Source: Syncephalis fuscata (lineage: Eukaryota > Zoopagomycota > Zoopagomycetes > Zoopagales > Piptocephalidaceae). Taken from it: a stretch of DNA of 64,000 nucleotides. How positions within the stretch are numbered: position 1 is the first letter of the stretch; each line of letters begins with the position of its first letter. Positions 304 through 60,498 of the stretch are shown here, piece after piece. The stretch covers positions 408,435 through 472,434 of the forward strand of contig JAHLTZ010000022.1 of NCBI GenBank assembly GCA_025786725.1, in the 5' to 3' direction. The notes below the pieces were generated by a model. That model saw nothing but the letters and a program-made list of their open reading frames with translations. It was not told where the DNA came from and ran no database searches. The position numbers and the translations under genes are program-made.

Positions 304-1710
304 TTATTTTGATACGCGTTCAGCGATATTAAGTCCAATGTCGTTAGCGATATTGACCATTGCACCAAGTGCCCAGCTTAACGTGCCAGTGGGTAGTGAG
401 TCGGAGAACTCAACAGTTCGGTCGAGGGGAATACGATAGCTATCGTGTAGCAATGCAATTGATAAAGCGGCATTAAAACAAATATTGTTCAAGAACGGAG
501 TATTTTTAAATGCCTGTTTGGCAGCAGTATTTGATAGGTGACTGCATTTGTCTTCTGCCGCACGGAGTAAACAACCTACTGTTGATGTTCCATCACATCC
601 GAACAACTTGGCCGTATAATAATAACTGCCTGTAGCGTAAATAGGCATTTTTTCCGGAATATCAGGCTGATGGACTCCATTAATAGCACACGGATCGGTG
701 GCGCAGAAGTTGCCACGGCCCAAAAGAGCCTGGCTAAGAATGGCGCGGCATCGGCCAAACTCGCCCTTACCTACCAGTGTTACAGTGCGATTATTGACAT
801 CAAACGAGGTAGTTGTGCCCAAGAATAGGCAAGGATCGCTAATAAGTCGCTGGCTCTTTGAATCCATCAATGATGCCACCATTCGTTTGCGCGCCTCATC
901 AGAACCAAGCATCAAGTAGGAATGTGTGTAGAGATCATGTGTAGTGCCGTTAACACGGCTAGCATAGGCACCTTCTAAAGGAGCGACTGTAGGTTCGAAA
1001 GTGATTTGCGTGGAGGCACCACCAAGATCAAGAGTAGCCACTGTTTGCTCATTCTTTGATAACAGTCGGCCCAGCAGGCTGTTGGCAGCCAGCCAGCCAA
1101 ACAATCCTTCGTGCTCGCCAGGAATAACTTGGGCACCCACTTTTGTATCAAATTTGAAAGGCACTTCTGTCTTATTGCTCATAAAAGCGGCAACTGCATC
1201 GATAAGTGCCTGGCGTTGCTGGCGAGGAACAAGGCGCATACCGGCCGTAGCCTTTAAATAAATGTAAGTGTTGGCATGGTGGCTTTGGGGAATAAACTGG
1301 GTAGCATTCTGGATTAGTGGTCGAAGATATTCAGCAACATTTTGAGGCTGCTGCGCTGATAAGCCAGGCGTAACTTTTGCTTCTAACTGTTTTTTGCCCT
1401 CTTTATCAAGTAATGGATAAACGGCAACTTGTGTCTGGTTGAGTCGAATACTGCTCCAGTAGAATGGATAGATTCGACTACCACTGCTACCTGCATCAAT
1501 AAGTAGACCATAACTAATATCATCAGTTATTGTTGATGGATTTGCAGTAGTAGCAGTAGCAGCACTATCAGCAGTAGCACTATCAGCAGTAGCGAATTTA
1601 ATAGGACCTTCAAGAAATGGCAATGTTGCACCAATACTTGATGATACTAGACTAGTCGCAAAAAGCGTAATAGTTATGGTAACGTGTACCAAGCGAGCCA
1701 ATCGATTCAT
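304..1710 (-). CDS. Ecto-apyrase / NTPDase (GDA1/CD39 family), copy 1
   Basis: Hydrolyses nucleoside tri- and diphosphates, probably in the secretory lumen or outside the cell. It is a single uninterrupted exon of 468 residues from the chosen Met. An upstream in-frame Met at 1734 adds eight residues, but the start at 1710 places a typical signal peptide (MNRLARLVHVTITITLFATS) at the very N-terminus. The apyrase conserved regions appear in order: DAGSSGSR (phosphate binding), KATAGMR, GWLAANSL, LDLGGAST, and a C-terminal SWALGAM block. A short Ala/Thr/Asp-rich stretch with an ATADS repeat separates the signal peptide from the catalytic domain. No C-terminal membrane helix is seen, so a soluble secreted enzyme is likely. 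It is paralogous to the plus-strand gene at 8241. Family assignment is firm; substrate preference is not visible. Confidence 0.93.
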   Translation of the reverse strand: MNRLARLVHVTITITLFATSLVSSSIGATLPFLEGPIKFATADSATADSAATATTANPSTITDDISYGLLIDAGSSGSRIYPFYWSSIRLNQTQVAVYPLLDKEGKKQLEAKVTPGLSAQQPQNVAEYLRPLIQNATQFIPQSHHANTYIYLKATAGMRLVPRQQRQALIDAVAAFMSNKTEVPFKFDTKVGAQVIPGEHEGLFGWLAANSLLGRLLSKNEQTVATLDLGGASTQITFEPTVAPLEGAYASRVNGTTHDLYTHSYLMLGSDEARKRMVASLMDSKSQRLISDPCLFLGTTTSFDVNNRTVTLVGKGEFGRCRAILSQALLGRGNFCATDPCAINGVHQPDIPEKMPIYATGSYYYTAKLFGCDGTSTVGCLLRAAEDKCSHLSNTAAKQAFKNTPFLNNICFNAALSIALLHDSYRIPLDRTVEFSDSLPTGTLSWALGAMVNIANDIGLNIAERVSK

Positions 1711-2856
1711 GATGAAAAAGTGGATAAATATCAACTATCGTATTGAATTGGTAATAAAGATCAAAAGATGGATCTAATAAATAGAGAATAGGTTGTGTAC
1801 TCGTTACGAAACGGAAGGAATCAGACTGGGAACTGCAAATAATAAGGAGTTGAACAAACAAGTCGATCATTCATTATGTTAAATACTTCTATTTCTACTG
1901 TCCGTTTTTCTTTTCTAGCTTGTGCTTAGATTGCTAAATCTAGAATATTGAAACGGCGGTCAATATCCACATGGCTGTTTCCCCCTTTAGCCACGATATA
2001 TGACATCTCCTAAATTCAACTTTATCGTTTCTTTCTTATTGATACTACTCTCATGTAGCAACAATCATAGACGCAAGGCTAGCCTTAGATTCACCTTGTA
2101 CCTGCACCAATTCACATGGAACACAAACAGTTGGATGAAATCCAGGTTCATTGACTACATGCCGGCCCACAAGAATTGTTTATTACATTTACTAAATCAA
2201 GTAATTCTTTTTATATACATTAACCTATTGTGGTGATAATTAGTGATGCTGGCCATGAGCACGAGTATCTAATCGTCAATACAAATAAAATAAATAAATA
2301 AAGATTTTATAGCTATAGGCCTATATCTACATATGGCTTAGTTTTAGTTGCAGAGTTTCCAAGTCCAATGACTTGTTAAAGTGTAACATTGTTGTATGAA
2401 TATTTATAACGGGTATTGTACTGATCCAACATCACGATTAACGTTTTCCAAGCATCTGGACAATTAGTCTATTTTACGACATTTATTATCCGACAATTAA
2501 TTGTTGTTATACAAATGGAGCGTTTTACAATGGCACATGACGCGTGACCGCCATCAGCACTAAAAGGCAAACTCGTGTCAGTGATGACCACACTGGCCCA
2601 GTATTGTTTTGCATTCCTTTAATCTATGCATTCCTGCACTATTTCCTATCATTGCTGCTCCTCGTATACTGAATAGCAGAACGACAGTAATATTGGTTCT
2701 AGCAGTCCCGCCCCTTATCTCCTTTTGCCTGGGAAAAGAAAATTTGGCGAATAGTTACTGAGTCTAGGCACTGACTGACATACCCATGTAGATATTGCTA
2801 TTCATTCGCCGGCAATCACTACAATCGCAACTCTATTGTCCTTGGCCGTGTTTAAC
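1711..2856. other. Intergenic region between divergent apyrase and MFS genes
   Basis: About 1.1 kb separating two divergently transcribed genes, so it should hold both promoters. A 78-codon frame at 2000-2236 (plus) begins with a hydrophobic signal-like stretch, but it has no homologue I recognise and no cysteine framework. I do not call it as a gene. No repeat or RNA gene is seen. Confidence 0.4.
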
Positions 2857-7142: not shown

Positions 7143-8240
7143 TCAATTGAATAAGTCATATTACTATTACTATTAAGCTATTATTAAATAAACTGCAATT
7201 TATTTATTTGTTATTTCTATTATTATAATATTTATTGATTTGATTAATGTTATTTTAATATAAATTAATGTTTGATTAGTGTATTTTAATTAATAAATGT
7301 ATAATATCTGATGTTTAAAATATTGACTTGTTGCAGGATCAATAAACAAAGGCATATCAGCTTATTAAAATCAAAAATAATAATAGATGCATCATCATAA
7401 ATCGAATAAAGCACAGAAATAGCTGGTTTGTATTACTAAATGTTACAGAAAGCATAGGTGTTTTGTGTAGCACAGAACTAGTTGAGCGACGATTCCAATG
7501 ACTTGGATGTATACATTATATAAAACAAACTGTACCCTCATTAACGCATGGAATTACGCCTTATCTTCATATTTTCTCCGCTTATTTGTTATAGCAACAC
7601 AATTCGGTTAAATACTACCTGATTACCACCAATCAATCGCTGATATTGATAGTAAAATATTGAATAGTTGGTTAGTTATGCTGTTAAGAGCATTGAAAAA
7701 TAAAAATGAATGGACACAAATAGTTCTTTTCGATGTTTCAAATTGATAAGTGCCTAGTGATTTGCATAAAACGTAGTTTGCAGTATTTATTAAATAAATA
7801 GTAATGGATGAAACAGTTTGTAAGTATGCGCTTTAGTATTAATTGTTTATACATTTATTGGCTAACGATGACCATAACATATGTATAGTCATTTGACTTT
7901 TATGGTATACAGCTGCTAAATAAATGTACTTTAGCCGGTCGTCCAGGCTGATAAACAATACAACCCACCCAAACAAAGTGGAACTGGTTAATTCTAATCA
8001 AAACAGGTTTACAAGGCCAGTCAATCGGCATATGGAAGAGCATTTGGCCTTTGACATACTGCTTTACATGTGACCTCCTCATGGCTGTCAGGCTTCTGCA
8101 TCGCAAACTATTCGTGAATAGTTCACTATAAAAGCTCCCGTAATGTTCGACTGTTTTATCGCGCGTATAATCTTGCTTAATTTCTTTATTTAATTAAATA
8201 TTTCTCCATATTATTGTCATTTATCTATAGCTAGTCTACC
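7143..8240. other. Intergenic, nothing recognised
   Basis: AT-rich sequence between ENPP and the second apyrase. A 68-codon minus-strand frame near 7900-8106 has no recognisable features and I regard it as chance. The last 100 bases contain a TATA-like tract (8126-8133) upstream of the apyrase start. Confidence 0.35.
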
Positions 8241-9586
8241 ATGATTCCATTGACTGGTATCATTAAAGCTGTAGCGATTGCTACTCTCTTTTTCTCAACT
8301 AGCGATTTAATTAGCGTAGTATCAGCTACCCCTTTGGATAATAATGGTAATAATGGTACACCACAAACTACTGAACCAATTTCCTACGGCCTTATGATTG
8401 ATGCAGGCAGCAGTGGAAGTAGAATTTTGCCGTTCTATTGGAGAACGGTCCAGCCAGGCGAGCTGAATGTTGCTGTTAATCCTTTGTTGAAAAATAATAA
8501 AGATAAACAGCTAAAGGCGAAGATAAAGCCTGGGTTGTCGCTACAAACACCAGAAGGTGTGGCTGAATATTTTCGGCCGCTTATAGAAGAGGGCAAGAAA
8601 TTTATTCCTGCAGAGAAGCACGGTGACACAATAATCTTTCTAAAGGCTACTGCAGGAATGCGGTTGGTGCCATTAGCGCAAAGACAGAAGATTATTGAAG
8701 CAGTTATAGCCTATTTCAATGACAAGAACAGGTACCATTCAAGTTTGATCCCGCGGTAAACGTTCAAGTTATTTCGGGAGAGGATGAAGGCGTATTTGGA
8801 TGGCTTACCATCAACTCCCTGTTAAATAGATTGAGCAGCGCAACAACTCCTGGAACAGTGGCAATTTTAGATCTTGGTGGTGCATCTACTGAAATCACTT
8901 TTAAGCCAAATTTAGTTCCGCTGGAAGGCACCTATAGAACACGAATCAATGGTACCAATTACAATTTATACACACATTCCTATTTACGTCTTGGCGTAAA
9001 TGAGGCTCGCGATCGAGTTATTGCTGCGCTTGCTGCTAATAGCAAGGATAATACCGTACACGACCCATGCATGCTTAAAGGGCAAACCCAGGCCTATAAG
9101 CTGGGTAGTGTTGTTGTTAATTTGGTTGGCCAGGGTCAATTTGAAGAATGCCATAGACTAACAAAAAGCGTACTGCTTGGGCGTAAAACATTCTGCGCCA
9201 CCGAACCATGCGCAATTAATGGTGTTCATCAGCCAGACATCCCGGATAATATGCCTATCTATGCCATAAGCAACTTTAACGATGTTGCAGATGTATTTGG
9301 CTGCCATGGCAAATCAACTCCCGGCTGTATTTATACCTCAGCGCAAGACAAATGCAATCGGCTTACTGCAGAAGAATTTAAAGCTCCATTTTCGGACAAT
9401 GTTTCAGTTGAATCGGCATGTTTTGCTGCGTCACTTTCTTTGGCATTAACTTTTGATAGCTACCGAATTCCTAATAACCGTGAGGTTTATTATGTCGACA
9501 GGCTACCTATTGGCCAACTAGGCTGGGCACTGGGCGCCATGATTGATGCAGTCAATAACATAAAACTTGACATTCAAGATAAATAA
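8241..9586 (+). CDS. Ecto-apyrase / NTPDase (GDA1/CD39 family), copy 2
   Basis: Paralogue of the minus-strand apyrase at the window start, with the same motif order and length (about 448 residues if the frame is joined). The N-terminus has a signal peptide (ITGIIKAVAIATLFFS then DLISVVSA). Motifs: DAGSSGSR, KATAGMR, GVFGWLTINSLL, LDLGGASTEITF, and GQLGWALGAM at the C-terminus. Paired cysteines in the second half match copy 1 (FCATEPCAINGVHQPDIP is almost identical). The reading frame breaks at about 8730-8735: the text before it ends in FNDKN and the homologous VPFKFDP continues one frame over, so one base appears lost. Everything before and after is well conserved, so I favour a sequence error over a pseudogene. 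Both copies are intronless, unlike their neighbours, consistent with duplication of an intronless ancestor. Confidence 0.9.
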
Positions 9587-18410: not shown

Positions 18411-21400
18411 CTAGGCAAGAATATGCGCTAGCTCTCTATCATCAATTTCTTGCTGGCGTTTGTGTATGAGTTCACACAAGTGCTCGTAGACCAGCCAGGG
18501 AAACGAGAGACGATCGCCGTATTCACCAGCCAATGCACGTTCCGATGGCTCATACGTCACGTAATACCAAGCCGACGCCTTACTACGAATTGCTTCTTGA
18601 ATATGTTCGGGAAAGGGAGCCTTTTTTGATACAGATGATGAAGTAGCAGCAGCAGTAGTAGCCGTGTTAATAGATGATCGGGCCATCAAGTCTTCAAGTC
18701 GTACATTAACAGCACCACCATTATTAGCTGGTTTCGCATCAATAATTGCACTTTCTAGTGGATCAGCCTCTGTAGCAACGGCTTCTTTAAATTCTTCCAT
18801 AAAGTTTCGTTTAAATCGAGCTTCAATACCACTAACAAGCTCCATGACTTGCTGACGCAAATGATAATCACGGCGTTGGAACGCATCTTGGAATTGAATG
18901 ACCCAGCCGCTAATCGCTTCCCATTCAGTAGCAATGCCAAACTGCTTCATCACCCCATCAATTGCTTGATCGTAGTCATGTTTTAGTATGCGTGCTTCTT
19001 TAAGAAATATTTCATAGCCATTAGCTAGCATTCGTTCATCGATTTGTGCATTGTCGTCCGGTTTAAACTCTTCAAGAGTAATTGCATCATAAATCTTGCC
19101 TAGTACTGTCTCAGAATGATACATTGGCTTATCAGACTTTTCCATAAAATGTGGATAACTACGTGGTCTTAATGCACGTTCAAACTCGGCTGGAACACCT
19201 GTTTTTGGGAAATCTACGGCAATTGAATGTAGCTGTGCAAGTCGAATACATGTGCCATGTCGTGCACCATTTGTTAATTGATCAGCCTGTGCAAGATGGG
19301 CATGGGCAATCATACCAAGATTGTCGTATAAAATATAATTGACAAAGAACTAATAATAAAATGAAATGATCAGTGTTAATAACGTTAATAGCCAATTTAT
19401 TCATTTTTACCCTTTTAATATCTCTAATATCAATATTCTCTTTGGTTGGTGAGGTTGGCGGTGTATTGTCCATGGGTTTAAAATCAGCTTCTGGTAATAA
19501 CTTTGGGTCCCAAATACATCTATTACATCAATAATCATAATAATAATAATTGTTAATACCATCTATTATATCTATTAAATATTTTAACTTACGTAAATTC
19601 ATCGCCATCTAAATCACCACCACTACATTGACTTGGTACATCGCGGTCACCCTTTTGACTAAATACAATAACGTTTTTTAAATGTCTTAATTCTGGCTTA
19701 TCAACTGCTGTTAGCAAACGAATATCGCCAGGATGGAAACATGGATTTCTTGTAACGGCACATGGACCAGTAGGTACGTAAGGCTTTTCATAAGCTGGAT
19801 GATCGTATTGAAGAAATATTTCGTGTGGTTCTAGGATATTAAATTCATCCATTACACCAAGTAGCATAACACTTTGTTCAATGGGTATTTTTGCCTTGCG
19901 TTTCAGTTCACGCAATTGGCAGGCCCGGAATACACGTAGTAGATTGGCTAGATACGTTTCATGTTTATCAAGTAGACCAGCCCGTAACATGGCCACCATA
20001 CGATTGACCGTTTCGTATTCATCGCCTGATTGTTGCAATAAACGAATGGCCGTCTCACGCTCGTTCATGGCCCGATTAATACGATCCATCATTTCCGTCA
20101 TACGATTAAGTATAACATTACCATCCACACCTAAACATGTAAGTAAAACAATAATCTGTCGATTAAGTGCACCAGCAGTGTAGTTTGCTACTCGAATGAC
20201 TTCAAGAGCCCGATGATCTGATTTAAATTTACACTGACTGTCACGATATTCAATACGTCGTAGTGTCGATGATAGTGGCGGATGTAGACTCAGTACACCT
20301 TTGCAGCCACCAAGTCTAAACTGGACTGCACTTGGTAGCTCTTTAAGGCCCATCTTTTCTTCAACGGCCCTAGCAATTGCTAATGACATACGACCAACAC
20401 CATCCGAGAATGTATAAGCGCCATCAGTAGTAATAATATCGGGAATACGCTTTAGCTCTTTAGGTTCTAGTTCAATAGTCATTCTTGTACTAGAGAAACA
20501 CTGGCCCATACGTGCGGCTAGCTTGCCAATAATCTTATAGTCTGAAAAGTCACCCATCCATTCACGGATTTGATCGGCAGTAATGCCATTATCGCCTTGT
20601 TTAGATGCAATAAACCAGCAGCCATATTCTCTTAGCTGAGAGGATGAAAAGGCCAGAAACTCATAGTGTCGTCCACCTACAAGTATGCCACGTACTAAAA
20701 TACTGAATAAACGTCGAAATAGCATATCATGGGTTTTTTCTGCGCCACGAATACCGAATAGTGACTCATCCAAAAATTGGATACGTAATAGTCGATCAGC
20801 ATGTTGAGCAAATGACCTGACTACGCGATTTGACGTCTCCACCATCGGTTCAAGTACGTACATTTTTGTTGGTGTGACAACAACTTTAGGAATGGCCACA
20901 CAATAATCCGGTAATGCTGTACGGTTTGTATGTTCACTAATAATACGACCGGCACCTTCAATCCACGTATCTGTTGGCGTATCAGCTTCATATTCGTCGT
21001 CATCTGCATTATAAGGATCCTCATCTGATTTCAATCGACTAATTTCACGTTCAAGCAGCTCATTTATATTATCGGTATCGCGCATTCTATGGACAAGATT
21101 ACGTAAAGCATGTTCAGCAACGCCGTTATCAACATTATTAGCCAATAAGTTTAAAAACTCTTCATCAATAGCATGTTCCGATAAACGTCGTTGTGTAATA
21201 TACTGTTGAAGCCGATACTGTACGGGAAATGACTTGGCACCTAGTGTAGCCAACTTGGACTGGCTAATCTTCTTCCATGGATATTCAAATGGATCATAGG
21301 TGACGTTTAGATCGAGTTGCGTATAAAACGATAATGTTTCCTCAGCTCTAGTACCATTTCTTGACATTGCTGTATCAGTTGTTGTTTTGTCGTTATTTTT

Positions 21401-23454
21401 AACAGTGGCTGGAATGCCTTGTAAAGGATTCATACGCGCATCTTCATTATCAGCCAAATGACGAAGTCCAAATATCTGCGCATTCTTTAGCGTATTAAGA
21501 AATGTTTGACCATCTGATCGTCGATTTGATCCAAAATTAAACTGAAGCCGATAATCTAACCAGAACCAAACAGCACCAATCCTCTGTCTTCATCATGCGG
21601 CAATACTTCAAATGGCTCAGTTTTTGAAGATTGAGGCACTGGCTGCATTCTAATATGCACTACACGTTGCCAGGCATTGTCGCGATTGTAGGTGCCTTCT
21701 TTGTTCGTGCTTGTACTTTCAACACGCTTCTCCAGCCGTTCGACCAATGGTGGCCGTGTTAATTTTAGTAACAACGTAACACTTTGTGGTGGATCTGCAT
21801 CATCGCGCATATTACGTATAGTCTGATCGTTACGTTGAATACGGAACCAACAAGGTGCATCTTTACACCGTAGTTCCATTCTAAAGTCTATGCCATCAAA
21901 TGTAAACTCCAGCTGTACTCGGCCTTTGTTTGGATCAATGGCCATTCGAACACTGCCATCCGGCTCCCAACACGATAGATAGACACCACGACGCGGCTCA
22001 GATCCCAGTTCTAACGAGTCAGCTGTAAATCGCTGCCATCCTATGCCGCTACCTTCTTGTCGTTGATTGTTCGGCAATTGCTCTTGTGGTGGCTGAGTAA
22101 GAAAGCGTGGCAGCAATACTTCTCTCGAAGCACATTCTTCGTCAATCCTACGATGCTCGTCAATTTCTTGATCGCTCATCGCATTGACCCATACTGAACT
22201 GTTGCAAATACTTATACTTAGTGCTTCTGTTCGCTCAATCAATTTTCGAATTATAGTATGAGGGTTTGGACTTATAGGCATATAACAAATGGCACCTCGA
22301 CCCGTATGTCTACTAGCACTTGTATGACCGCCGGTATTTGTCTTAAGATCAAGACGAGCACTATAGAGATTACCAAATTCGCTAAATACTTTGACTATGT
22401 CTTGTAAATTGGCTTGTTCTGGAACACCTCGCAGTGAAATAAGTAAACAGCGCGGCATTCTTACAGTTGTTCTTGTAGATGGAGGCGAATAAGCTGATTG
22501 TTCTGGTCGAGAAGAATAGGAATTACGGCCATTTCTTCTATCGGTGTTATGTTCTGAGCGTCTTGAAAAACGTCTTTCTTCTTCCTGGTTAAGCTGTTGT
22601 CGATATCTATCTATCATATCGCTAAATAATTGATCATTTTATTACATTTAATTAGCACTATTAACGAAAATAATAAACACACCAACTTACAAGCTTATTT
22701 CTGGCGGCTGATTGTCAATTTGTTTGCCATGTTCATCGCTATCATTTATCTGTCTCTCTTGGTGCATTTGACGGAATACAGTTGAAACGCGCGCAATTCG
22801 CCTTGTTTGATTATTGGGTGCAGGTGGACTGCGAACATTATTGCGAATTGTTGCCTCATTGTTGGATTGTTGATTATCGTCTTCGTCTTGAGAAGATGAT
22901 CCATACTGATTTGATCGAATTATTGGTGATCGAGGCTGATCTCTTCTAACAAAACTAATATCCTGTTGGGCATTATAAATATTATTATTGTATATTGGCG
23001 CGCGATTCTCGCCATTCAATCGATCTAGTCTCTCGTCGTATTGAGTGTCATTATGTGAATTATGGCGTTCTCTGTTATACTCTGCTGGCTCGTCATATAG
23101 TCGAGACTGATAATCGTAACTGGCGTTGTTGTTCGAATTAGCTTGCGTAGAATTGAAGCCATTTCGTGGTCTAGTAGCTTGTATTTGTCGAGGGTCAGTC
23201 TGCCGTACAGGCATACCGTCGACCCATATAGTTGTAGAGCCATAGCCAGACGTTGGCCTTGGGTTGCTGCTAGATTCGGCGTGCCGACCATTTACATTGA
23301 AAGATGCTGGTGGCGATGAAGGTTGCGCACGACGCGCTGTTCCGTCACGGCGACAGCTAGGCAGCTGGTCGACAGTTTTACCAAGCTGCGCTGCGAGCAT
23401 TTCACGAAGATCATCGTCGTCTGATGAGCTATCAAAAATATCTGGTAAATCCAT
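18411..23454 (-). CDS. RNA-dependent RNA polymerase (RNAi/quelling type) with RRM
   Basis: Makes dsRNA for RNA silencing. Exons: 22691-23454, then 19593-22621 (broken once), 19411-19519 and 18411-19349, with GT-AG introns and matching phases. Residues 1-250 are disordered, rich in Asn, Arg and Ser. An RRM-like fold follows (RCLLISLRGVP...IVKVFSEFGNLYSARLD). The catalytic core shows YTFSDGVGRMS, VQFRLGGCKGVL, then the metal-binding hallmark QCSGGDLDGDEF continuing TCIWDPKLL, and FFVNYILYDNLGMIAHAH in the last exon. One base appears missing at about 21580-21590, where the frame passes into WLDYRLQFNFGSNRR. The total is roughly 1,600 residues. An upstream Met at 23532 in frame is possible, but 23454 opens the acidic MDLPDIFDSSSDDDD typical of a cytosolic N-terminus. 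Identification is firm. Confidence 0.93.
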
Positions 23455-51300: not shown

Positions 51301-51808
51301 TAAACGCAAAATATTTATAATATATTTTTGAATAAACAGTTAATTTTGTTGTCAATATATATAATTACAATATCTGCATTTAACGTTGATATATTCATAC
51401 TATCTTATGCTTATAACTAATACAATATAATTGCAAATGTCTTTAGTTAGTTTGACTAATAATTAATAATTATTGGATGCAAATAGAACATGAGTATAGA
51501 TATAACAATTCGATTGTATATAGCTAAAATGAACCACAAGTTTATTACTATAAGCTTGCACAGTTGAATAGAAACAACTAAATGCAAGCCTGTTGATAAA
51601 ATAATATCCCATTGATTAAAGACTGGATAAACCGGAGCATTGGCCAAAACTTGATATATAGATGACTGAATGGCGTAGTTGTCAAATAGTCTTGCATTTC
51701 ACCGAATATATACCTAAAGTGTGTTAAAATAGTGGTTTGATTGCACTACCAATGCTGATGTCTTGAAAGCACCTATTGTCCTGTGTTTACGAATAAAAAT
51801 ATTACATG
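51301..51808 (-). repeat. Duplicated 3' flank of micro-exon gene A
   Basis: About 500 bp nearly identical to 58570-59022, downstream of gene B (shared words include AACCGGAGCATTGGCCAAAA and TGGATGCAAATAGAACATGA). It gives the downstream limit of a tandem segmental duplication. It probably includes 3'UTR and terminator of both genes. Confidence 0.85.
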
Positions 51809-54800
51809 TCCTATAATTAATTTTATAGGTTAACAATATATAATACTACTTACATTCTATTAATATTAAACAATTAATAAGTACATTTCATGGTATAAAA
51901 TTAGCACATAATCAGTTAATACAAAATACAACTTACTTTCTATTATATTAAGTTGTTGATATACAGAATACATAGTATATAATTAGTCTATGCTCTATTG
52001 ATATACAATGCTACTTACCGCCTATTAGTATTAAGTTGTTAATACACATGGTGTATAGCATGTGGTTAGTGCATATTCAGTTAATATACATTACCACTTA
52101 CAATCTATTGATAATAAGTCATTAGTACAATCAACAAATAGTAGGCGATTAGTTTATAGTTAATTAATATACAATACAACTCACAAGCTATTAAGATTAA
52201 GTTATTGGTACGCACAGCACATGGTACATAATTAGCGCATAATCATGTAGTATACAATACGACTTACTTTCTATTATATTAGGTTATTGATACACACAGT
52301 ACATGAATATAATCAGCGAGTAATTAGTTAATATACAATATAACTTACTGCCTATTGGTATTAGATTATTGGTACACATGGTGTATAACACGTGGTTAGT
52401 GCGTAATCAATTAATACACAATACAACTTACACTCTATTATATTAATTAATTGGCACAATTAGTAAATAGCATCTGATTAATGTATAGCCAATTAATATA
52501 TAATGCCACTTACTTTCTATTATATCGAGTCATTGGTACATACAGTACACGGCACATAGTTAATGTATAATCAATTAATATACAACGTTACTTGCCCACT
52601 ATATATTAAATCATTGATACACACAGTGCACGACACATAATTAATGAATAATCAGTTAAATACACAATACAACTTACTGCCTATTATGTTAAATTGTTAA
52701 TGTACGCAGTGCATAATATATGGTTAGTGTATAGTCAGTTAAAATACAATACAACTTACATTCTAATAATATCAAGTTGTTGGTACACAGATTACATAGA
52801 TATAATTAATGATTAATTATTTAATATATAGTATTACTTACCGCCTATTATATTAAGTCATTGATACACACAATGTACAATATAAAATTAAGATATAGTC
52901 AGTCAATATACAGTAAAACTTACTATCTATTAATATTAAGTTGTTCATACACACAGTACATGAGATATGATTAGCGTATAGTCAATTGATATACAGCACA
53001 ACTTACATGCTATTAATATTAATATATCGATACACAAAGTACGTGGCATATAGTTAATAAAAAGTTAGTTAATGTACAATACAACTTACTGCCTAGTATA
53101 TTAATTATTATATACACAGTACATGGTATATAATTAGTCTATGTTCTATTGATATACAATGCTACTTACAATCTATTATATTAAATTGTTAATATACACA
53201 GTACGTGGCATATAATTAGTGCATAGTAAGTTGATATAACATACAAATTACCAGCTATTAACATTAAATCATTGATACGCACAGTGCATGATATATAATT
53301 AGCACATAGTCAGTTAATATACAATATAACTTACTGCCTATTAGCATTAAGTCATTGGTGCACACAATACATGACATATACTTAGTGCATATTTAGTTAA
53401 TATACAATACCACTTACAAACTATTAATAAGTTATTGGTACAATCATTAAATAGTATGTGATTAATGTATAGTTAATTAATATACAATACCACTTACTTT
53501 CTATTGTGTTAAGTTGTTGGTGCATATAATACATAATGTATAATTAGTTTATAAGCCAGTAATATACGATGTTACTTACGGTCTATTATTATTATTAAGT
53601 TGTTAATGCATACAGTACATGGCATATAATTAGCGCAGTCAGTTAATATACAATACAACTTACGACCTATTAGTATTGTCATTGGTGCACACAATATATG
53701 ACATATAATTAGTACATATTTAGTTAATATACAATACCACTTACCATCTATTATATTAAGTCATTGGTACACAAAGTACATGACACATAAGTAGTACATA
53801 TTTAGTTAATATACAATATAACTTACTATCTATTAATAATTCATTAGTACAATCAACAAATAGTATGTGATTAGTGCATAGTTAGTTAATATACAACACA
53901 TCTTACCGCCTATTATATTGCGTCATTTATACACATAGTGCATGGCATATAATTAGTGCATAGTCAGTTAATATGCAATACCACTTGCCCCCTATTAATA
54001 TTGATTCATTGATACACATAGTACACGACATATAATTAGTGCATAGTCAGTTAATATACAATACCACTTGCCCCCTATTATATTAAGTTTTTGGTGCATA
54101 TAATATATAATGTATAATTAGTTTATAAGCCAGTAATATATGATGCTACTTACGGCCTATTATTATTAAGTTGTTAATGCACATAGTATATGGCACATAA
54201 TTAGCGCACATTCAGCTAACATACAATACCACTTACTAGCTATAATATTAAATTGTTGATGCGCACAACACATGGCATGTAATTAGCGCAGTCAGTTAAT
54301 ATGCAATACAACTTACGATCTATTATATTAAGCCATTGGTACGCGCAGTACATGGCGCATAATTAGTACATATTTAGTTAATATACAATATAACTTACTA
54401 TCTATAAAATTAAATTGTTCATACACATAGTACATGGCACATATTAGGACATATTTAGTTAATGTACAATACAACTTACTGCCTATTATATTAAATTATT
54501 AATATACACAGTACATGGTATATAATTAGTCTATGTTCTATTGATATACAATAGGACTTACAAGCTATTAATATTAGGTTGTTAATGCACACAGTACGTG
54601 ACATATAATTAGTGCATAGTAAGTTGATATAACATACAAATTACCAACTATTGATATTAAGTGTTAATGTACACAGTACATAGTATATAATTAGTTTATG
54701 TCCTATTGATATACAATAGAACTTACGACCTATTAGTATTAAGTCATTGGTGCACACAATACATGACATATAATTAACACATATTGAGTTAATGTACAAT

Positions 54801-55956
54801 ACCACTTACCACCTATTATATTAATTTTAATATACACAGTACATGGTATATAATTAGTCTATGTTCTATTGATATACAATAGGACTTACAAGCTATTAAT
54901 ATTAAGTTGTTAATGCACACGGTACATAACACATGATTAGTGTGTGGTCAGTTAATACAAAATTCCACATACAAACTATTGATATTAAGTGTTAATGTAC
55001 ACAGTACATGGTATATAATTAGTCTATGTCCTATTGATATACAATAGGACTTACAAGCTATTAGTATTAAGGTGTTAATACACATGGTGTATAGCATGTG
55101 ATTAGTGCATATTCAGTCAATATACAATATCGCTTACGGTCTATTATATTAAGTTGTTAATATACACAGTACATGGCATATAATTAGTGCATAGTCAGGT
55201 AATATACAATTTTACTTGCCCACTAATATATTATATTGTTGATACACACAACACAATATATAATTAGCGCATATTCAGTTAATATACAATACCACTTACT
55301 ATCTATGGAATTAAGTTGTTTATACACACAGTATATAGCATATAATTAGTATATAGCCGGTTGATATACAATACAACTTACTGCCTATTACATTAAATTG
55401 TTGCATACAGTACATGGTATATAATTAGTCTATGTTTTATTGATATACAATAAAACTTACAAACTATTAATATTAAATAATTGGTACAATCAATCAATAA
55501 CATCATCAATGTATGGCCAGTTAATATACAATACAACTTACAGCCTATTAATATTAAATAATTGATACAATTAGCAAATAGCATCGTTAATGTATAACCA
55601 ATTAATATGCGAATAACTTACGATCTATTAGTATTAAGTAATCGATACACACAGCACACGGCATATAATTAGTGTATAGTCGGTTGATATGCAATATAAC
55701 TTACAGCCTATTAATATTATTTATTAATGAATATAATATATAGTATATAATTAGCGAGTAATTAGTTGATACATAATATAACTTACGCTCTATTATAATC
55801 ATTAGTTAGCAATATTATTGGTAAGCAAATTCTATGGCATATTTATTGTTATTACAACATACCACGACGAACTAAGGCTGGCTTAGCATCCACCATGGCT
55901 GTACTGGCCACAAGCGCCACGACGATAGTGCAAATGACGGCAATAGAAAGCTTCAT
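51809..55956 (-). CDS. Secreted Cys-rich peptide encoded by 49 three-nucleotide exons (gene A)
   Basis: Exon 1 (55863-55956) starts MKLSIAVICTIVVALVASTA, a signal peptide, then a short pro-segment ending in the dibasic site LVRR, and stops after one base of the next codon at a GTATGT donor. Then follow 49 exons of exactly 3 nt, each between TAG and GTAAGT-like signals, period about 82 bp. Their lowest coordinates are 55787,55705,55622,55542,55461,55382,55300,55220,55138,55055,54973,54890,54810,54727,54645,54562,54480,54399,54317,54237,54154,54072,53989,53907,53827,53745,53664,53580,53498,53418,53335,53252,53170,53090,53007,52924,52842,52760,52678,52596,52514,52432,52349,52268,52185,52102,52019,51937,51854. 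The last exon begins at 51810. In exon-1 phase there is no internal stop. The product after Arg-Arg is 49 residues with eight Cys (C-x6-C-x3-C-x13-C-x2-C-x4-C-x3-C-x3-C), and TGA forms at the last junction. Predicted total: 80 residues. Function unknown; transcript evidence would be decisive. Confidence 0.72.
51857..55786 (-). repeat. Tandem intron array, 48 repeat intervals of about 82 bp
   Basis: Each unit, read on the minus strand, is one intron of about 77-81 nt plus 3 exonic bases. The consensus begins GTAAGTTGTATTGTATATTA, passes through a GCACTAATTATATG-like middle and a TACTGTGTGTATCAA segment, and ends in CTTAATATTAATAG. Donors are GTAAGT in most units, with GCAAGT (after micro-exons 8, 22, 23 and 40), GTAAGC (9), GTATGT (11), GTAATT (15, 32), GTAAGA (24) and GTGAGT (45). 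All acceptors are TAG. No unit has lost its donor or acceptor, although the intron bodies have diverged. Units 10, 12 and 16 share the same exon triplet and nearly the same following intron, as do 22 and 23, showing duplication of intron plus exon as one unit. Confidence 0.9.
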
Positions 55957-56110
55957 GGTGATATTGATTTGTTGAGACAAACAAATAAAAAAGATAGTAG
56001 AGTGTGGTTGGTATAGAGTGGGGAGTAGTGTGTGTTTAGAAAGAAGTAGAGTGTGATGATGATATCGCAGTTGGTTGTGTATATTTTGTGAGCTATTTAT
56101 ACTTATGATT
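55957..56110 (-). promoter_or_regulatory. Promoter and leader of micro-exon gene A
   Basis: Reading on the minus strand, a TATA-like GTATAAATAGCTC lies at about 56092-56104, about 140 bp before the ATG, followed by ACAAAATATACACAACC. The same block (AAATAGCTCACAAAATA, then CACACAAC) precedes gene B at 60600-60650. Conservation of this block while the flanks diverge suggests a functional core promoter. Confidence 0.6.
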
Positions 56111-58569: not shown

Positions 58570-59022
58570 ATATTTTTGAATAAACACAGTCAACTTTATT
58601 GTCAATAGATAATTACAATATCTGCATTTAACGTTGATATATTCATATCATCCTATGCTTATAACTAATACAATATAATTGCAAATGTCTTTAGTTAGTT
58701 TGACTAATAATTAATAATTAATGGATGCAAATAGAACATGAGTATAGATATAACAATTCGATTGTATATAGCTAAAATGGAACCACAAGTTTATTACTAT
58801 AAGCTTGCACAGTTGAATAGAAACAACTAAATGCAAGCCTGTTGATAAAATAATAATCCCATTGATTAAAGACTGGATAAACCGGAGCATTGGCCAAAAC
58901 TTGATATATAGATGACTGAATGGCGTAGTTGTCAAATAGTCTTGCATTTCACCGAATATATACCTAAAGTGTGTTAAAATAGTGGTTTGATTGCACTACC
59001 AATGCTGATGTCTTGAAAGCAG
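58570..59022 (-). repeat. Duplicated 3' flank of micro-exon gene B
   Basis: Near-identical to the 51.3-51.8 kb block. Differences are mainly single substitutions and one-base indels, so the duplication or a conversion event is recent compared with the divergence of the intron arrays. Confidence 0.85.
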
Positions 59023-60498
59023 CTATTGTCCTGTATTTACAAATAAAAATATTACATGTCCTATAATTAACGTATAAGCCATTAATATACAATAAAACTT
59101 ACTGCCTATTAATATTAATTTGCTTATACATAAATTCAATAGCAAGCGCTTAGTAAATGGTCAATGAATATAATGTGGCACTTACAGCCTATTAATATTA
59201 AAATGTTGATACATATTAAATAACATGTAATTAATGCATAATCAAGTCATATAAAATATCACTTACGAACTATTATATCAAGTTGTTGATACACACAGTG
59301 AATAACATGTAATCAGTGCATAGTCGGTTAGTATACAATGCTACTTACCCACTAATATATAAAGTTATTGATACACACAGTACATAGTATGTAATTAGTA
59401 AATGGCTAATTGGTGTATAATCCCACTTACTGACTATTATGTTAAATTATTGATACACATAGTATGCCACACATTTACTAAATAATCAGTTAATATACAA
59501 TACTACTTACGACCTATTGATGGTGAGTTATTGATACACAGTAAATAGTACGTAATTAGTACATAGCCAATTATTATGTAACCTCACTTACCGCCTATTA
59601 CATTAAGTTGTTGATGCACACAGTAAATAGCAAGCGATTAGCGGATTATTAATTAGTATGTAATATTACTTACCACCTAATATATTAAGTTGAAAATATT
59701 ACAGTAAACATCACACAATTAATAAGTTATTACTTTATACACAATATAGCTTACAACCTATTAATATTAAGTTATTAATGAATACAGTAAATAACATGCA
59801 GTTAGTGTATAGTCAATTATTATGCAATGCTATTTACCAGCTATTGATATTAAATCATTGATAGGCACAGTATACCGTATTCGATTAGTACATAGTTAGT
59901 GTGTGTGTAATATCACTTACGGGCTTTTTATATTAAATTATTGGTATACACAAGATATAGCATGTGATTAGGGAATAGTCAATCAATATACAACACCGCT
60001 TACGCTCTATTGATACAGAATTGCCGATACACGCAGTACATAGTATATAATTAGTATATAGTTAAGTACTATAGAATATCACCTACCAGCTATTAAATTA
60101 AGGCATTGATACACATAGTATATAGCATTTAATTAATAAGCACTTGCTTAATATATAATATCGCTTACTGGCTATTATATTAAATTATTGGTATACACAA
60201 TAAATAGTATATAATTAGTGAATATTCAATTAATATACAATACTACTTACGACCTATTAAGCCAAATTGTCGATACACGCAGTACATAGCATGTAATTAG
60301 TATATAGCAGGCTATTATAAAATGCTACTTGCCGTCTAACACCATAATCAGTTAAGCATAATATTAGTAAATATGATGTTATATTTATTGTAATTACAAC
60401 ATACCACGACGGGCTAGAATTGGATTAGCATCCACCATGGATATAGTGGATATAAAAGCCACAATAATGGTACAAACGACGGTAATAAAAAGCTTCAT
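59023..60498 (-). CDS. Paralogous secreted peptide with 16 three-nucleotide exons (gene B)
   Basis: Exon 1 (60405-60498) is the same length as in gene A (94 nt) and encodes MKLFITVVCTIIVAFISTIS, then MVDANPILARR, with the same GTATGT donor and phase. Sixteen 3-nt exons follow, lowest coordinates 60333,60251,60169,60087,60004,59921,59838,59755,59674,59592,59511,59431,59349,59267,59186,59103, spaced 80-83 bp. Donors are GTAAGT, GCAAGT, GTAAGC, GTAGGT or GTAAAT. Acceptors are TAG except one AAG (before the sixth). Joined in phase there is no stop. The terminal exon from 59060 continues HVIFLFVNTGQ then TAG at 59023. The predicted product is 59 residues; the micro-exon part has only two Cys and no resemblance to that of gene A. 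It may be a shortened array or a separately evolved peptide. Confidence 0.6.
59106..60332 (-). repeat. Tandem intron array B, 15 repeat intervals
   Basis: Same architecture as array A: introns of 77-80 nt, donor GTAAGT-like, acceptor TAG, 3 exonic bases. Intron bodies are recognisably related to those of array A (ATACACACAGTACATAG-type segment) but more diverged among themselves, so array B is older or evolves with less homogenisation. Confidence 0.85.

Follow-up and report, generated by a model that had tools for sequence, protein, structure and literature searches.

Can a protein be put together from exons of only three nucleotides (nt), one directly after another for the whole length of its mature part? 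The question is raised by a stretch of 64,000 nt from Syncephalis fuscata, a fungus of the order Zoopagales (contig JAHLTZ010000022.1; hereafter the window, in which all positions are counted), on the minus strand of which a signal-peptide exon is followed by a long row of 3-nt units flanked by splice-site dinucleotides. The reading that accounts best for the results, to which a probability of about 0.93 can be given on the strength of the sequence, is that this focal gene belongs to a large S. fuscata family in which precursors of secreted, cysteine-rich peptides are encoded in tandem arrays of 3-nt exons. If this is true, a spliceosome can assemble the greater part of a protein in steps of three nucleotides, dozens of them in succession, in around 100 genes; this would matter for how small an exon can be, for the handling of splice sites that lie 3 nt apart and for the question whether exon definition is needed.

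The focal gene starts with an exon 1 of 94 nt (55863..55956, minus strand) that encodes MKLSIAVICTIVVALVASTAMVDAKPALVRR, a signal peptide (assigned by eye) and a KPALVRR pro-site, and that ends in codon phase 1; homologues of this exon elsewhere in the genome have the identical boundary or are 3 nt longer. It is followed by the micro-exon array (51854..55789, minus strand), which consists of 49 exons of 3 nt with a period of about 82 nt, from AGC at 55789-55787 to AAT at 51856-51854. A regular-expression parse of the minus strand returned 52 AG-NNN-G[T/C] sites, from which 49 units spaced 79-84 nt apart were obtained; the other three sites are artefacts that each sit 4 nt within another unit. 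The longest chain of such sites in the focal stretch is 49; randomising that stretch 1000 times with a first-order Markov model gave chains of at most 3, and control scans of other parts of the window gave chains of at most 2 (plus strand, to about 54.1 kb) and at most 1 (minus strand, to about 48.1 kb). Tandem Repeats Finder describes the focal region as an 82-bp repeat in 47.4 copies that are 71% alike. The focal introns measure 73-81 nt, and the donors, that of exon 1 included, are GT in 46 of 50 cases and GC in the remaining 4 (after the units at 55222, 54074, 53991 and 52598). When the focal exons are joined in the phase that exon 1 sets, they contain no internal stop and eight cysteines and create a TGA at the last junction; the predicted product consists of the signal peptide and an RR site followed by a 49-residue peptide with the eight cysteines, whose mature form would run ERYRFC...CEK with up to 4 disulfides. 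All of this agrees with an earlier note on this DNA, which had proposed a 94-nt signal-peptide exon followed by 49 consecutive 3-nt exons, introns of about 79 nt, a GT or GC donor at all 50 introns, eight cysteines, no stop and a TGA made precisely by the last splice.

Two claims of that note about the gene itself had to be changed. It had set the terminal exon at 51809, by means of a TTATAG acceptor that, among the listed loci, occurs only in the two array genes of the window, the others having TATACG, TATATG or similar; an acceptor resembling AAATACAG, further downstream than TTATAG, is common to the listed loci, and the terminal exon is therefore placed at 51780 (entry 51600..51780, minus strand, where 51600 marks no mapped 3' end). 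Its acceptor, at 51781, reads GTAAACACAG followed by GACAAT, and the exon supplies the stop at the junction of T with GA together with the 3' untranslated region; either acceptor yields T+GA = TGA. Sequence like this 3' region also lies 3' of the stop in two intron-free relatives, loci L003 and L013. Moreover, the note had described a single gene. A second array gene is present in the window (60498-59030), and the pattern of the exon-1/intron-1 junction has 114 matches in the 28.95-Mb assembly when at most 3 mismatches are allowed, and none in a backwards-read control. The focal signal peptide has at least 150 scored matches among 345 candidates in the assembly, and the exact unit TATNAATAGNNNGTAAGT occurs 1734 times, again with no match in the backwards-read control. 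Because this exact pattern recovers just 271 of the 629 units parsed below (11 of 49 in the focal gene), the resulting number of about 4,000 micro-exons in the assembly, in which both haplotypes may be counted, is only a rough extrapolation.

Whether these units are coding was addressed in the array genes among the best signal-peptide matches plus the two in the window, using a parser that scores splice signals and lengths and ignores exon content. Of 28 loci parsed (22 more were skipped as shorter copies), 4 repeated a longer locus, in full or as its opening part, and were removed, leaving 24 non-redundant genes. Run without a length preference, on a set that included duplicate loci and with signals first learnt from the focal units, the parser called 651 of 684 exons at 3 nt, 26 at 6 nt and 7 at other lengths. 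When multiples of three were mildly favoured and duplicate loci taken out, the 24 genes yielded 629 exons, of which 600 are of 3 nt, 26 of 6 nt and 3 of 2 nt. The introns, 60-100 nt long in 615 of 629 cases, follow no multiple-of-three rule: those up to 100 nt are spread over the three remainders modulo 3 as 239, 237 and 139. When the exons were joined in the exon-1 phase, 4 stops appeared in 655 codons as compared with 30.9±4.3 (minimum 15) after shuffling the order of exons within each gene 5000 times, cysteines numbered 100 as compared with 47.8±5.1 (maximum 66), and 21 of the 24 genes were free of stops where 7.2 were expected (maximum 14). In 12 of the 15 array genes for which a terminal exon was found, that exon or its junction supplies an in-phase stop. 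The 6-nt exons (L031, L034, L038, L045 and others) mostly stand behind TATTAG, as opposed to TATTAATAG in front of 3-nt exons, with an exception in L047 at 3192, and in many genes they recur at a similar place near the array start.

The closest view of the predicted product comes from the intron-free members of the family, which have the same signal peptide, a continuous frame that is cysteine-rich in most, and similar 3' sequence (L013, L003). One of them, L070, aligns with the joined focal product (CGLACNNPSRGG...CTYSECMEKCKTYC in L070 and CDRACNRPSRGG...CTYSECMEKCKTYC in the focal product), and in CTYSECMEKCKTYC 14 of 14 residues are identical. These residues come from focal micro-exons 33 to 47, which are spread over about 1.15 kb, and the nucleotides behind them differ from L070 at 4 of 42 sites, all third codon positions. 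The local score of the two products is 132, whereas the highest score after shuffling the exon order is 67 (mean 25.6, n=20,000), with 12-13 for the other phases and at most 44 for the unspliced six-frame translation (mature part of L070 taken from residue 9). A reading in which each micro-exon is itself one codon (phase 0) was rejected, as it gives 5 stops but also only 5 cysteines in 589 codons (focal gene excluded) and a score of 12 with L070. The claim of the earlier note that the array is a real gene for a secreted cysteine-rich peptide is thus strongly supported by L070 and by the stop and cysteine statistics of the 24 genes, and is probably correct.

A further line of evidence is the divergence of exons and introns, which was compared in 21 gene pairs, 20 of them with a result; Fisher tests were done on 6, and comparisons with a gene in common are not independent of each other. 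Where the introns can be aligned well, divergence is 4-9 times higher in the micro-exons than in the introns of several, though not all, pairs. This is exemplified by L038/L041 (18/66 differences in exons and 66/1357 in introns), L028/L029 (12/36 and 28/768) and L039/L054 (25/75 and 116/1468), each with p<1e-7, while L034/L037 has no clear excess (5/99 and 47/2030; p=0.09). Among probable alleles, L051/L052 differ at 0/99 exon and 36/2013 intron sites (p=0.41), and L050 and the focal gene share 7 of 7 micro-exons (0/21 nt) with introns differing at 10/539 sites. With stricter flanks, L038/L041 and L039/L040 together have 14.5 changes at 49.2 amino-acid-changing sites and 1.5 at 10.8 silent sites, which are small numbers in which replacements outpace silent changes. 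These patterns suggest diversifying selection on the micro-exons, and in the pairs with an excess the evolution of the peptide becomes measurable residue by residue.

In the proposed mechanism, exon 1 would encode the signal peptide and a dibasic cleavage site for Kex2-type processing, and the mature peptide would be spread over tandem units of about 82 nt, each made of a 3-nt (rarely 6-nt) exon and an intron of about 79 nt. The ordinary spliceosome would act by intron definition and remove these strong-ended introns (GTAAGT...TAG) one after another; since 3 nt leave hardly any room for the complexes of both splice sites at once, stepwise removal is probable, and since each step adds three nucleotides, the frame would never be lost. 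Every codon would then straddle a splice junction, taking one base from the end of the upstream exon and two from the start of the downstream one, with the stop supplied by the last junction or by the terminal exon. The parsed donors comprise 609 GT and 20 GC, with positions +1 to +6 (GTAAGT) each at least 95% conserved, the acceptors are mostly AATAG, and the commonest positions of CTRAY motifs are 26, 44 and 53 nt upstream of the intron's end, all figures that are partly circular because the parser selects for such signals. The array introns have the GT-AG or GC-AG ends and the branch-point-like motif of U2-type introns and a length usual for this genome, and a control intron in the ribonucleotide reductase gene of the window has 76 nt and the form GTAAGT...TAG. 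Judged by this one control, the array introns look ordinary for the genome apart from their mutual similarity, the unusual feature being the spacing of 3 nt. Upstream of the focal gene, in DNA that is common to family members, lies the sequence TATAAATAG (56093..56101, minus strand), which we take to be TATA-like and presumably part of the promoter.

The joined products and the intron-free proteins point to a small disulfide-stapled peptide, with no family membership claimed. In 22 aligned mature peptides, four cysteine columns are invariant (22/22), in a CxxxC...CxxxC arrangement with small changes in spacing. These peptides were picked by hand and comprise 11 of the 24 array products and 11 of 15 intron-free ones; left out were 13 array products that are partial, degenerate, near-duplicate or incomplete in the pattern (the last including L035, L053 and the second window gene, WIN_B) and 4 intron-free ones, of which L057, L060 and L073 are near-duplicates and L066 has another pattern. 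A profile of the peptides gave 7 matches to solved structures at E values up to 10, and only weak ones (among them 7uv4, E=0.018; 2l2r, E=0.047; 7zru, E=1.4); those to note are vicilin-buried peptides, EcAMP1 and a kappa-KTx toxin, which we take to be helical hairpins and to be grouped with the alpha-hairpinins. Their CxxxC-Xn-CxxxC pattern is shared by all 22 picked peptides and is lacking in at least L066 and WIN_B; the family described here differs from the alpha-hairpinin group in being fungal and in having extra cysteines, and the profile scores are too weak for kinship. A Pfam search found no family for L013 and L003, and among the 22 mature peptides it returned eight families with one member each, the best being Toxin_2 (E=4.7e-05). 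A conserved signal peptide in front of a variable cysteine-rich mature part is typical of antimicrobial, venom and effector peptides, and Syncephalis species parasitise other fungi. For such a mycoparasite the likeliest guess, which we would put at even odds, is that the peptides act as effectors or antimicrobials against host fungi.

The rival that survives best concerns how the arrays are used. Nearly all exons are of 3 or 6 nt, so that skipping one keeps the frame, and in phase 1 a skip makes a new codon at the joint; the micro-exons might thus be mostly skipped or combined, with one array giving many peptides as a combinatorial library. However, the cysteine pattern shared by the aligned peptides and the identical exons of probable alleles suggest a defined full-length product, and we consider predominant skipping rather unlikely. 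Somewhat easier to entertain, if still tentatively, is the idea that a row of single-codon-sized exons serves as a generator of diversity, in which residues are added, dropped, swapped or skipped without loss of frame. The roughly 100 arrays would in that case form an evolvable and perhaps splicing-variable library of peptides against host fungi, of which spliced versions are occasionally frozen as intron-free genes.

How the two gene forms relate bears on a second rival, namely that the arrays came into being through introner-like insertions into an intron-free gene, once per codon, and that the intron-free copies did not arise by loss. The array introns do resemble one another, as we take introners to do. 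A tree of 50 rows of upstream sequence plus exon 1 (35 array, 15 intron-free) has, in its best unrooted form, 5 changes between the two forms, at least 2 of which are forced by well-supported branches, with the bootstrap not fully settled. The lack of a root leaves room for gain, but the intron-free L059 and L060 are nested within a supported array clade, where loss is simpler. Gain would also need independent insertions with exact 3-nt spacing and constant phase over the mature region and none in exon 1, and loss through reverse transcription has been inferred for a plant gene with a 1-nt exon (PMC8831610). We therefore regard an introner origin as improbable. The upstream DNA of the intron-free L003 and L013 resembles that of several array genes at about 76-82% over 1.3-1.6 kb, exon 1 included. 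The possibility that these two are dispersed retrocopies is accordingly unsupported, and in-place loss is preferred to copies dropped elsewhere. The simplest account of the intron-free copies would be a locus that recombined with reverse-transcribed spliced mRNA; in plants, intron-free copies of APC11 have been ascribed to intron loss mediated by reverse transcription (PMC8831610). As a separate observation, the upstream 1.3-1.6 kb are common to the dispersed family (L003 and L013 against L002-L030), so the repeated unit exceeds the gene, and its borders were not located.

A third possibility is that the array genes are real but decaying and that their intron-free paralogues are the working copies. 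It would fit the 2-nt or degenerate units in 4 of the 24 array genes and the 12 of 629 introns with 223-901 nt; yet 20 of the 24 are without such units, 21 are stop-free as given above, and the probable alleles L051/L052 and L050/focal have kept their exons identical with introns about 1.8% different, a contrast that for L051/L052 has p=0.41. Moreover, the array-type donor is found in 27 of the best 30 signal-peptide matches, the other 3 (L003, L004, L013) being intron-free, which leaves general decay with a slim chance. The 40 further loci, chosen among open frames of at least 55 residues without covering all of these, comprise 21 that are continuous, 18 that start with the intron-1 donor and one that is unclassified (L114), L098 and L108 having been assigned by eye; 13 of the 20 loci in the first half of this set have a continuous frame. 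The long introns occur singly in L031, L035, L040, L044, L047, L051, L052, L053 and L054. They probably arose through inserts of mobile elements; the adjoining micro-exons are still called. ARAGORN, used to look for tRNA-derived inserts, found no tRNA in 7 loci, where degenerate ones could escape it. The weakest explanation makes the array an 82-bp satellite without coding function, contained in a single large intron, with exon 1 joined to the terminal exon and the micro-exons accidental. It could draw on the homology of the repeats (71% alike), with which AG and GT positions might be inherited, and on conserved bases outside the splice sites proper (ATT at 93-94% in donor positions +10 to +12), but it is dismissed, like a chance origin of the array, by the shuffles and the L070 match, since codons that arise only on joining are cleared of stops, doubled in cysteines and matched by an intron-free gene, and since the 3-nt stretch changes fastest in several pairs while 677 of 684 exons keep a length of 3 or 6 nt.

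Several points weigh against the reading of the family as tandem 3-nt-exon genes. The genes parsed are those whose signal peptides best match the focal one and no random sample, and the focal gene alone reaches a joint chance of only p=0.003 in the shuffle test; the case therefore rests on the family and on L070. L070 is the sole intron-free gene that closely matches an array product: among the array products compared, the next-best scores with full intron-free peptides are about 60, a little more than the 42-55 that shuffling reached at most, and a score of 78 between L044 and L105 falls in 3' sequence that is read through in both. Donors are weak (GTAATT, with an alternative GTATGT 7 nt downstream) at 2 of the 49 focal units, the micro-exons TTG (54645..54647, minus strand) and CTG (53252..53254, minus strand). 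Without a length bias the parser makes 10-nt exons of both, which breaks the frame, and misses one GC-donor unit, so that 48 focal units are called; the 3-nt reading is favoured at both because the L070 match runs across them. Elsewhere the frame is broken by 2-nt units in L026, L041 and L044 and by a degenerate unit in L030, and 3 of the 15 terminal exons fail, L041 and L044 reading past the stop and L035 stopping early. These aberrant genes may be decaying, misassembled or affected by sequencing error. In addition, WIN_B has only 2 cysteines, the cysteine pattern of the intron-free L066 is a different one, and the tree, being unrooted, does not fix whether introns were lost or gained. Finally, in L038/L041 differences are raised near changed exons (11/180 against 1/324), as they are in L039/L040 (13/216 against 8/360) and are not in L038/L039 (16/252 against 5/72). 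Unit replacement may therefore add to exon divergence, part of which may not be point changes under selection.

Among known systems, the micro-exon genes (MEGs) of schistosomes come close in that they encode secreted parasite proteins in many short exons, mostly multiples of three. Their exons have 6-81 bp (3-81 in the abstract), mostly 15 bp; a gene has 10-20 of them, and its introns measure 0.1-5 kb (PMC10526429). The S. fuscata arrays share the secreted product and the short multiple-of-three exons and lie outside the MEG sizes of exons and introns, having almost exclusively 3-nt exons, up to 49 per gene, and mutually similar introns of about 79 nt; no homology is claimed. The bicycle genes of aphids have about 17 exons on average, and a megacycle gene has more than 100 micro-exons (PMC9168663). 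What they have in common with the arrays is a putative effector role, numerous small internal exons of nearly uniform phase and high divergence; unlike the arrays they are animal genes, and the text of that source consulted here describes no rows of single-codon-sized exons. Isolated exons of 3 nt and even 1 nt are known from mouse Ncam, Drosophila TnT and plant APC11 and VPS55 (PMC8042270, PMC8831610), which shows that spliceosomes can include such sizes. There, single exons stand in ordinary genes, whereas here a consecutive run would encode the whole mature peptide. The contrast drawn in the earlier note, which had held known micro-exons to be larger and a long run of single-codon-sized exons to be undescribed, thus loses its first half and keeps its second: none of the matches listed describes a gene in which 3-nt exons follow one another without a break, in a search of titles and abstract starts with most subscription journals outside its reach, and the literature search found no paper combining Syncephalis with exons and introns.

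The relatives found in two protein searches all come from the same species. A protein search with the intron-free L013 gave 6 matches, all S. fuscata hypothetical proteins (6/6) and none from another species, and in a search of 5.8 billion proteins all 13 relatives with E up to 0.1 were from S. fuscata (13/13). The deposited models P0001 and P0002 have signal peptides that match the array loci L015 and L024, but their later residues are unlike array products; as they run on into unrelated residues, annotation seems to miss the micro-exons, and genes of this array type can escape it. In L107, L102 and P0003 the same signal-peptide cassette precedes mature parts without the cysteine pattern, with further dibasic sites in L107 and P0003. 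From these differing mature parts, the promoter and signal cassette may serve several types of peptide.

The second array gene of the window has an exon 1 of 94 nt (60405..60498, minus strand), an array of 16 exons of 3 nt (59103..60335, minus strand; product RRDGPTEPPGCGGLMVRCRQ* with the asterisk for the stop) and a terminal exon that starts at 59030 (entry 58840..59030, minus strand); Tandem Repeats Finder reports a second array of the 82-bp type at 59081-60307. By eye, its 3' part (58840-59030) is almost identical to that of the focal gene (51600-51780), although the arrays and signal peptides of the two genes are clearly different, and recent local gene conversion between the 3' parts is therefore suggested. 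A search of the window for RNA families and tRNAs found none. The window also contains a GDA1/CD39 nucleotidase gene (304-1734, minus strand; Pfam E=4.4e-81) and a second GDA1/CD39-like gene in two frames (8235-9586, plus strand), recognised by eye from its translation, Pfam having been run on the first only. An RNA-dependent RNA polymerase gene lies at 19589-21589 on the minus strand (Pfam RdRP, E=1.6e-147).

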